A model generated the notes under the pieces. It saw only the letters and a list, made by a program, of their open reading frames with translations. It was not told the DNA's origin and made no database searches. A stretch of 40,145 nucleotides of DNA from a virus. Made by a program: the position numbers and the translations under genes. Shown piece after piece: positions 7,098 through 8,980 of the stretch; position 1 is the first letter of the stretch; the number at the start of each line of letters is the position of its first letter. Location: positions 1 to 40,145 of the IMG/VR virus record IMGVR_UViG_3300035661_004728; one strand, 5' to 3'.

Positions 7098-7832
7098 CTA
7101 GCCCACCACGGCATGCAAGGCTGTCACTTCAGCCAACGGCACATCTTCGATGGCCTCTTCCGGATAGAAGCGCCGGAGGGACAGGTGGGTGGATGTGCGC
7201 CCGACATATTCCCTCAGGATAGCGCCGCCGCCAGATAGATCGACGATGACGTCATCGCCGCGCGGGGGATCCAGGTCAAAAACAAAGTAGGCCAGCTCCC
7301 GCGGCTTCCAGCGTGGGTGCATGGCCTCGCCCACGACCTCATAGATACCCGTACGTTCGTAACCGCGTTGGGCAGGGTGCATTGGCATGAAGCGAATCTC
7401 TGCGCCCGGCGCGAGATCTACGCTTCCGGGTGTCGCGGCAGGGCGGCCATAAACGGCGACGAGGCCAGGCATAGGCGTGGCCTGGAATGGGCGTCCGCGC
7501 TCGGCGGCCCCAGTAGCCTGCGCAGCGACTTCCTGACCGGCGAAGCGTGCACGCTCCAGCAATAGGTCCTGCATTGAGGCGCCAAGGGCCGCGACCAGCC
7601 TTTGCTGGACATCAGGCTGGAAGATGGATGGAGCAAGGCCGCGCTCATACTTCGACCAGGCCGGCGCGTTGCCGACACCAAAGCGCGTGGCGGCGTCTTC
7701 CTGCGTCATTTCCGCGCGTTCGCGCAGGGCCTTCAGAGCCTGGCCGAGCAGCTTTTGCTCTCGGGAGTTTGTGTCGCCTGACCTCATCCGTAAACGGTGG
7801 TCGACGAACCGGGCTTGGGCCACAGCCTGCAT
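7098..7832 (-). CDS. XRE-family phage repressor with degenerate S24 peptidase domain
   Basis: A 244-residue CI-like repressor. An XRE helix-turn-helix lies at about 28-92 (LKALRERAEMTQEDAATRFG). The C-terminal LexA/S24-type fold has GEAMHP at 168-173, where active proteins have GDSM or GESM, so the nucleophilic Ser is Ala170. The catalytic Lys position reads AILREY, with Arg207 instead of Lys. Both changes predict a protein that cannot cleave itself but can still dimerise. An internal start (Met16, 7787) is possible; neither start has a clear ribosome site, and the transcript may be leaderless. It faces the Cro-like gene across a 64-nt operator region. Confidence 0.88.
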   Translation of the reverse strand: MQAVAQARFVDHRLRMRSGDTNSREQKLLGQALKALRERAEMTQEDAATRFGVGNAPAWSKYERGLAPSIFQPDVQQRLVAALGASMQDLLLERARFAGQEVAAQATGAAERGRPFQATPMPGLVAVYGRPAATPGSVDLAPGAEIRFMPMHPAQRGYERTGIYEVVGEAMHPRWKPRELAYFVFDLDPPRGDDVIVDLSGGGAILREYVGRTSTHLSLRRFYPEEAIEDVPLAEVTALHAVVG

Positions 7833-7843
7833 GGGCTTTTAGA

Positions 7844-7886
7844 AACCAAACTTTTTAGGTTGCGTCCATACGCAAATCAGTTTTGC
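7844..7886. promoter_or_regulatory. repressor/Cro operator region
   Basis: The 64-nt gap between the repressor and the Cro-like gene carries AACCAAACTTTTTAGGTT (7844-7861, flanked by inverted AACC/GGTT) and CAAATCAGTTTTGC (7873-7886). Both match motifs at 6431-6447 and 6470-6484 with one or two differences. The spacing between the two motifs is 10 bp shorter here, about one helical turn. The core promoters of the two genes must lie here, but their boxes are not clear. Confidence 0.6.
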
Positions 7887-7896
7887 CTCTGACTCC

Positions 7897-8190
7897 ATGA
7901 GCGATAGTACGACCGAGGCTGACCTGACCAGCGCACCAGATGGGCGCCATCCCCTGATCGCGTGGTGCGACGAAAATCGCGTGCAACTAGCGAAGGCGGC
8001 GGCTGACCTCTCGATCACTTACAACTCACTGCGCCGCTATTGCCTGCCATTCGAAAATGCCCAGCACCAGACACCCCGCTCGGCCGTGGTAGCGAGGATC
8101 GTCGCCTATACGAACGGGCGCGTAACGGCTGAGGATTTTTTCCCACCCCACCTGACCCGAGCCGGCCAAGGGGGCGAGGTCACGCAATGA
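7897..8190 (+). CDS. Cro-like helix-turn-helix regulator
   Basis: A 97-residue protein. Residues about 20-75 match a Cro/YdaS-type helix-turn-helix (VQLAKAAADLSITYNSLRRY, then a wing and VVARIVAYTNGRVTAEDFF), the usual phage Cro organisation in which the recognition helix follows a short turn. It is divergent from the repressor and shares its operator region, so it is the natural antagonist in the lysis/lysogeny switch. The 3' end overlaps the convergent small gene at 8180-8374 by 11 nt. Confidence 0.8.
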   Translation: MSDSTTEADLTSAPDGRHPLIAWCDENRVQLAKAAADLSITYNSLRRYCLPFENAQHQTPRSAVVARIVAYTNGRVTAEDFFPPHLTRAGQGGEVTQ

Positions 8191-8374
8191 ACCGCCCCTC
8201 GATGAATGCAGCGTGGGTCTGGGCGCTGTCGACAGCGTCGGCGGCCAGCCCAAGGCTGAAGAGCAGGCCTTCGACGGCGGCATTGCGGGCGCCGATGCTG
8301 GCGTGGTCGGCGTTCAGCCGGCGTTCGAGCTGTTCCACCAGCTCCAGCACGCGGCGGCGTTTGTCGGCGTCCAT
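8180..8374 (-). CDS. small helical protein next to a LexA box
   Basis: A 64-residue protein, almost all helical (MDADKRRRVLELVEQLERRL, then an Ala-rich second helix), of unknown family. I chose ATG 8374 because AGGGGA ends 6 nt before it; an in-frame GTG lies one codon upstream. That ribosome site lies inside a perfect hairpin (8382-8398). A direct-repeat SOS box is 54 nt upstream of the start. This context makes it a candidate damage-induced regulator, such as an antirepressor, but nothing in the protein itself proves that. Confidence 0.55.
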   Translation of the reverse strand: MDADKRRRVLELVEQLERRLNADHASIGARNAAVEGLLFSLGLAADAVDSAQTHAAFIEGRFIA

Positions 8375-8381
8375 CACCTAT

Positions 8382-8398
8382 CCCCTGATTGTCAGGGG
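8382..8398. promoter_or_regulatory. hairpin covering a ribosome site
   Basis: CCCCTGA (8382-8388) and TCAGGGG (8392-8398) form a perfect 7-bp inverted repeat with a 3-nt loop. In the leftward transcript the second arm contains most of the AGGGGA ribosome site of the gene starting at 8374, so folding would hide it. It could equally be a DNA operator palindrome. Confidence 0.45.
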
Positions 8399-8427
8399 CG
8401 GTCGCGCCGCCCCCTGGTGGCGCATCT

Positions 8428-8442
8428 GTTCCACAAATGTTC
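8428..8442. promoter_or_regulatory. alphaproteobacterial LexA (SOS) box
   Basis: GTTCCACAAATGTTC is an exact GTTC-N7-GTTC direct repeat, the LexA-binding consensus known for alphaproteobacteria such as Caulobacter and Rhodobacter. It lies in a 162-nt gap inside the regulatory region, 54 nt upstream of the leftward gene at 8374 and about 390 nt upstream of the first sure rightward gene. A strong ribosome site (GAGGGGAG) and ATG at 8525 also lie to the right of it. Host LexA probably represses a promoter here. Confidence 0.65.
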
Positions 8443-8536
8443 TCATTTGCGGAGTCGTTAACGCGACAAAAGCGGACGCAGGCGGCACGGCGCTTGTGGC
8501 GCGGGCCCTAGAGGGGAGACGGCTATGAGCCGACGG

Positions 8537-8776
8537 TCAGAAATCCAGAACGCCGCGAATGACGCTCAGCTGCGTCGAGGCGCTCAGCCGGGCCAGGTTC
8601 GCGTCGTCGGGCTTGTCGGCAAGATAGGCCAGGCGCTTCTCCAGCTCGGCAGCCTGCTCCTCGAAGTGGATGTCAAACTCCACGGGCGAGGCGGCTCTGA
8701 CGAAGACCATCAGGCGGCGGATCAGTTCCGTGGCAGCGTCGGCATTGCCGATGGCCGTAATCGTCTGCGGGGACAT
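8537..8776 (-). CDS. small hypothetical protein
   Basis: A 79-residue protein of unknown family, with two helical stretches (ADAATELIRRLMVFVRAA and FEEQAAELEKRLAYLADK). AAGGAG lies 9 nt upstream of the ATG, and nearly all third positions are G or C, which supports this strand over an overlapping rightward frame. It is oriented leftward, towards the LexA-box region, and may be read into the gene at 8374. Confidence 0.6.
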   Translation of the reverse strand: MSPQTITAIGNADAATELIRRLMVFVRAASPVEFDIHFEEQAAELEKRLAYLADKPDDANLARLSASTQLSVIRGVLDF

Positions 8777-8827: not shown

Positions 8828-8980
8828 ATGACCACTGAAGAGATCGCGGCCTTATGCGATGCCCATCACGCAAGAATGGTGAGCCGGTTCGGGGCCGACG
8901 TCGTCGCGGAGGCCAACGCCTCCCTAGCCGCCCAGGCGCGCGCGAAGGCCGCCCTGGCCGGAGAGGATGCCCATGGGTAG
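8828..8980 (+). CDS. short hypothetical protein
   Basis: A 50-residue protein (MTTEEIAALCDAHHARMVSR, then an Ala-rich helix) of unknown function. It is the first likely gene of the rightward early operon and overlaps the next gene start by 8 nt. The frame stays open upstream to an ATG at 8525 that has a good ribosome site, but that extension overlaps a better-supported gene on the other strand and looks non-protein-like, so I use the shorter form. Confidence 0.45.
   Translation: MTTEEIAALCDAHHARMVSRFGADVVAEANASLAAQARAKAALAGEDAHG

Follow-up and report, generated by a model that had tools for sequence, protein, structure and literature searches.

The window analysed here is the complete virus record IMGVR_UViG_3300035661_004728 (40,145 bp), and the subject is its immunity region, in which the phage repressor gene, a Cro-like gene and a small gene for a 64-amino-acid protein (p64) lie close to a sequence resembling a host LexA box. 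Judging from the sequence, the repressor of the phage appears no longer to cut itself after DNA damage in the usual way, and the host damage-response switch appears to have been placed before this tiny helical protein instead. From these features we infer the following course of events. In the lysogen, host LexA bound at 8428-8442 would block the leftward p64 promoter, and the repressor (7098-7832), having lost the cleavage site and the two catalytic residues, could not be triggered by RecA to cleave itself. After DNA damage, LexA would cut itself and p64 would be made, which would bind and inactivate the repressor and thereby open the lytic operon; leaky synthesis would be reduced by a hairpin that covers the p64 ribosome site. 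Induction of the prophage through the host SOS response by antirepression through p64 is considered somewhat probable.

The site at 8428-8442 is very probably a real LexA site. Its core, GTTC-N7-GTTC, is that of the alphaproteobacterial LexA box (Caulobacter consensus in PMC12700426). The plain pattern was rejected as evidence since it occurs at chance level, with two matches in 40 kb against 0.67 expected, a number reached by 15 of 100 shuffles; the second match, at 8312, lies within p64. A matrix was built from 72 lexA/recA boxes, with the lexA and recA promoters taken from Caulobacteraceae genomes. The site scored 23.7-23.9 bits, compared with about 7 bits for the next-best site, and none of 60 simulated 40-kb genomes reached this score. 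Sites as good are expected about 0.0006 times per 40 kb on both strands, and the matrix scan gave no other strong LexA site in the 40 kb. The lexA/recA boxes show preferences beyond the core (typical recA box, TGTTCGCAAGATGTTCTC; phage site, TGTTCCACAAATGTTCTC), and both the core and the flanking preferences of genuine SOS promoters are present at the phage site. In 60 Caulobacteraceae genomes, the extended motif TGTTC-N6-TGTTC-TC gave about 104 hits versus 2 for the reversed control pattern. Many of these hits precede SOS genes, and they include the promoters of recA, lexA, ssb, and radC-like and imuA-like genes (names assigned by reading the translations). The matrix test is the cleaner of the two, because the last letters of the pattern were picked after the phage site had been seen. 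The exact box pointed out in an earlier note on this DNA is present and, by the extended motif and its score, is a high-quality match to a host LexA box.

It is likely that the target of the box is p64, and LexA control of this gene is well supported. In 53 of 63 lexA/recA boxes (84%), the gene and the GTTC form are on opposite strands, with 4-113 nt between the box and the gene start; the phage box has the same opposite-strand orientation relative to p64, 53 nt from its ATG. Because 10 of the 63 boxes, as well as that of prophage L172, are reversed, orientation was rejected as a strict rule and used as a preference only. No other gene of the window has a strong LexA box. The box lies together with the hairpin in a gap of 162 bp between p64 and the next minus-strand gene, p79, and p64 itself stands between the Cro-like gene and the rightward operon, that is, inside the immunity region. 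Codon statistics derived from the long genes of the phage itself gave 43 bits for p64 and 59 bits for p79, with a sense mean of 42. Both are likely genes because they exceed the highest antisense control, 29 bits. The coordinates are collected in Table 1.

Table 1. Features of the immunity region and its surroundings, in window positions.
Feature	Positions	Strand	Remarks
Phage repressor, helix-turn-helix plus S24/LexA-type C-terminal domain	7098-7832	-	Ala170 and Arg207 at the positions of the relatives' catalytic Ser and Lys; Ala-Ala at the cleavage site
Perfect dyad TTGCGT-CCAT-ACGCAA, possible operator	7860-7875		in the repressor-cro gap
Cro-like gene, divergent from the repressor	7897-8190	+	homologues at the same place in L001, L156, L157 and L158
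p64, 64-amino-acid protein predicted as all-helical, candidate antirepressor	8180-8374	-	tail-to-tail with the Cro-like gene
Perfect 7-bp hairpin over the p64 ribosome site	8382-8398	-	AGGGG is the complement of 8382-8386
Probable LexA box GTTCCACAAATGTTC	8428-8442	+	extended motif TGTTC-N6-TGTTC-TC at 8427-8444
Imperfect dyad TCCACAAATG-TTCT-CATTTGCGGA over the LexA box	8430-8453		9/10 pairs; possible second operator or chance
p79, minus-strand gene	8537-8776	-	codon signal 59 bits; AAGGAG ribosome site; opposed by the open reading frame from 8525
First likely gene of the rightward operon	8828-8980	+	rightward genes run on from here

The loss of self-cleavage by the repressor is, as judged from its residues, highly probable. 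A profile of these repressor C-terminal domains matches solved LexA structures (E 3e-5), while the fold match of the repressor to LexA and lambda repressor is weak. The S24 assignment rests on the profile matches because the structure modelled from two sequences gave a poor C-terminal domain, with a mean predicted local distance difference test (pLDDT) of 60. The domain is of the type found in autocleaving S24/LexA-CI repressors, but without their Ala-Gly site, Ser and Lys. Relative to the 49%-identical repressor of L156, another Caulobacteraceae genome, Ala-Gly is replaced by Ala-Ala, the Ser of GESM by Ala170 and the Lys of IIKEY by Arg207, which bears out the previous description of a non-cleavable repressor next to the small gene. 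All three autocleavage elements are intact in the L156 repressor, and that of the more distant relative L001 is also intact; no GTTC-N7-GTTC was found in 14 kb at L156 or in 21 kb at L001. If antirepression holds here, the two routes of SOS induction would be directly comparable, since the close relative has kept the ancestral self-cleaving repressor.

Structure prediction from the single sequence gives p64 as one continuous helix of residues 2-63 (pLDDT 93.7), in agreement, together with its codon use and its distance from the box, with the helical gene first described at this place. The hairpin CCCCTGA-TTG-TCAGGGG is perfect and real. On the minus strand, its 3' arm bears the ribosome site (AGGGG), which precedes the ATG at 8374 by 7 nt and is predicted to be fully paired in most leaders. 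As a strong signal, however, the hairpin was downgraded, being not exceptional among 36 gene starts of this GC-rich phage: a 7-bp helix at the ribosome site was found in 2 of the 36, one other gene having a hairpin of similar strength, and p64 ranked sixth in folding energy. In the folding predictions, a stronger upstream hairpin that shares one arm (-16.5 vs -11.9 kcal/mol when each is taken alone) is the first to form as the chain grows, where it would free the ribosome site, and loses in most full leaders. The hairpin at 8382-8398 could, on these models, act as a translational brake.

Repressors with an S24/LexA-type domain were surveyed in Caulobacteraceae genomes and phage contigs, scanning up to 5 kb on each side. 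Those with Ser and Lys present were classed as intact (28) and the others as dead (13). A strong LexA box (≥18 bits) was found within 5 kb of 6/13 dead and 1/28 intact repressors (Fisher p 0.002; 0.006 without the window), these p-values being approximate because some loci are related or cut by contig ends. At L172 and L187, the box lies immediately before a gene of 64 or 67 amino acids. The two proteins are homologous, as are the repressors of the two prophages, which lack the catalytic Ser and Lys. The L187 locus (2128-2371) belongs to a P2/186-like prophage, with tail gene D nearby, and has a 21.7-bit box before the 67-amino-acid gene. A profile of this pair detected further members in L188, L182 and L183 (E 1e-9, 3e-4 and 5e-3, respectively), giving a family of 63-67 amino acids present at five dead loci and at none of the 28 intact ones (p 0.0012; 0.004 with the close pair L182/L183 collapsed). 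Four of the five family loci are under a LexA box. At L182 and L183 a 91-amino-acid Cys-rich gene, under boxes of 36.8 and 33.9 bits, comes first and the small gene follows it, and at L188 the box is at a Y-family polymerase gene and not at the small gene; the boxes of these three loci were accordingly accepted as direct antirepressor promoters only with qualification. The tendency of dead repressors to adjoin strong boxes, five of them with the 63-67-amino-acid family, strengthens the proposal that p64 is an antirepressor.

On a broader reading, Caulobacteraceae prophages have repeatedly lost the self-cleavage residues and gained a LexA-controlled small antirepressor, with at least two unrelated proteins involved (p64, and the family of L172, L187, L182, L183 and L188). 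This generalization is tentative, its chances falling just short of even. If true, a dead S24 active site predicts where uncharacterised LexA-controlled antirepressors are located. Dead repressors are not alone in having a boxed small gene beside them: in the Novosphingobium prophage L016 (5538-5785), a 24.1-bit LexA box heads a 61-amino-acid gene beside an intact-looking S24 repressor.

Several points weigh against antirepression through p64. The host was deduced from the relatives of the window, namely Caulobacteraceae and sphingomonad phages and prophages. The region yielded no sigma-70-like promoter, though Caulobacter promoters differ. No credible relatives of p64 were obtained by peptide-pattern scans, by tblastn or in 390 genomes, where the hits at E 0.0007-0.01 were mostly within long frames, as chance gives in that number of genomes. 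In the survey, 7/13 dead repressors had no strong box within the sequence examined, and with the count restricted to boxes that immediately precede small phage-type genes, the numbers are 3/13 dead vs 0/27 intact (p 0.03; 0.09 without the window). Membership of p64 in the 63-67-amino-acid family is not supported (2.4 bits, with 109 of 986 shuffles as good); since p64 is not detectably in that family, the phage would be a separate instance of the same design. Finally, p64 is convergent with cro, so that a p64 transcript would run against early lytic transcription and could extend into the repressor gene.

The alternative that survives best, although unlikely, is that LexA controls p64 and that this protein has another SOS task, such as host division inhibition, counter-defence or host enzyme modulation, the repressor being inactivated otherwise. 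The absence of recognisable relatives of p64 would be consistent with it, as would the further small genes headed by LexA boxes in these genomes and the boxed gene beside the intact repressor of L016. Nevertheless, a repressor without self-cleavage needs an inducer, p64 is the sole gene of the window with a strong box, and the boxed 63-67-amino-acid family was found only at dead repressors.

Because p64 and cro are convergent, a second alternative was kept. In it, LexA would control a leftward transcript that crosses p64, continues antisense to cro and enters the repressor gene; SOS would then increase the repressor mRNA or reduce Cro, and p64 would be mainly a leader. The lambda promoter PRE has this same arrangement, with a leftward transcript and cro opposed before the repressor gene. 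Here p64 and the repressor are on one strand with cro opposed between them, and no leftward terminator was found between p64 and the repressor. Such a transcript would, however, oppose induction and leave the dead repressor without an inducer, and the coding statistics of p64 are normal, which makes this explanation quite improbable.

Direct repression of the rightward (lytic) operon by LexA from the box, offered in the earlier note as the other possible reading, is likewise improbable. The box is upstream of the rightward genes, and the ATG noted at 8525 exists with a ribosome-site-like sequence; LexA is also known to control phage promoters directly, in CTXphi and GIL01, as cited in PMC9437464. 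The plus-strand open reading frame from 8525, however, is antisense to p79 and gave -3 bits over it, and a rightward operon starting at 8525 was rejected by these codon statistics, as there is no gene there to start. The first likely rightward gene, at 8828, is 386 nt off and behind an opposing gene, and the box orientation favours the minus strand, as a preference and not a rule given the reversed box of L172.

It is very unlikely that the GTTC repeats merely derive from a phage operator (the dyad at 8430-8453) or from chance, with no LexA action. The dyad does overlap the box with 9/10 paired positions, and a 10-mer is common to the box region and the repressor-cro gap, but such dyads arise by chance at about 0.6 per kb for the permitted loop sizes (our own estimate), and a site this good, expected some 0.0006 times in the window, fits the geometry of SOS promoters. 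The operator dyad and the LexA box may both be real. The 10-mer, CGCAAATnAG, occurs exactly twice in the window, at 7871-7880 (+) in the repressor-cro gap and at 8442-8451 (-) beside the box, and may be a shared operator half-site. A single operator common to both places was rejected, as the two have only the 10-mer in common and their dyads are differently spaced.

An antirepressor role of p64 is, by analogy with known systems, the reading that seems rather probable. In coliphage 186, the p95-tum promoter is regulated by LexA, and the Tum antirepressor inhibits CI and induces the prophage (PMC7708051). The likeness would lie in a LexA-regulated promoter driving a phage antirepressor, whereas here p64 converges with cro within the immunity region, the repressor has a dead S24 fold and the box is of the alphaproteobacterial type. 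The repressors of Salmonella Gifsy-1, Gifsy-2 and Gifsy-3 are uncleaved on induction and are inactivated by the small proteins GfoA, GftA and GfhA under direct LexA control (PMC3121763). The phage would share with them a small LexA-controlled protein facing an uncleaved repressor, with repressor binding proposed by analogy, but the Gifsy antirepressor gene is outside the immunity region, and p64 is unrelated in family searches. As described in PMC9437464 and PMC4551915, CTXphi and GIL01 also co-opt host LexA, whose action there is at phage promoters, either direct or together with a corepressor, whereas an antirepressor gene facing a dead repressor is proposed here. The loci of the 63-67-amino-acid family resemble the phage in the box (4/5), the small predicted protein and the repressor without catalytic residues, but p64 is not detectably homologous to their proteins. 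No similarity of p64 was detectable to any record in the phage collection, and no match to known antirepressor families was found in phage records at E 0.1, Pfam or PHROGs. Thus, p64 would resemble 186 Tum or Gifsy GftA in its working and not in homology, as far as the known families searched. The original suggestion of a LexA-controlled antirepressor like Tum, unrelated in sequence, holds for the box, its most likely target, the analogy and the lack of sequence kinship, the antirepressor role itself being proposed.

LexA-controlled antirepression has so far been established mainly in enterobacterial phages (186, Gifsy), and no report of it in Caulobacteraceae prophages was found in the open-access papers searched. 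If true, this would be an alphaproteobacterial case. The survey also gives a rule that can be tested elsewhere, namely to look for a LexA-boxed small gene where the repressor is dead, and it names candidate repressor-binding proteins.

Among the other loci surveyed, L168, L159, L184-L186, L189 and L190 have S24-fold repressors without the catalytic Ser and/or Lys and no strong box in the examined sequence, and a weaker LexA-like box at L005 (4756-4783, 18.4 bits) ends 12 nt before a 147-amino-acid gene adjoining an intact repressor. The boxes at L182:6321 and L183:5369 head a conserved 91-amino-acid Cys-rich protein without Pfam match, followed by the 63-67-amino-acid family member. Boxes in L131 and L143 are also followed by small Cys-rich proteins of similar appearance, and these proteins behind LexA boxes are possibly an undescribed SOS gene family.

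The searches made for p64 with peptide patterns, tblastn and 390 genomes gave no credible relatives of p79 either. Three related phages have a small minus-strand open reading frame against the rightward operon at a corresponding position (window 8537-8776, L156:5953-6192 and L001:4673-5056), with no detectable sequence similarity among the three. Elsewhere in the window, at positions 2708-2898 (191 bp), the hexamer AGCCGT forms an array of some 32 copies with 95% matching, which is unusual in a phage genome.
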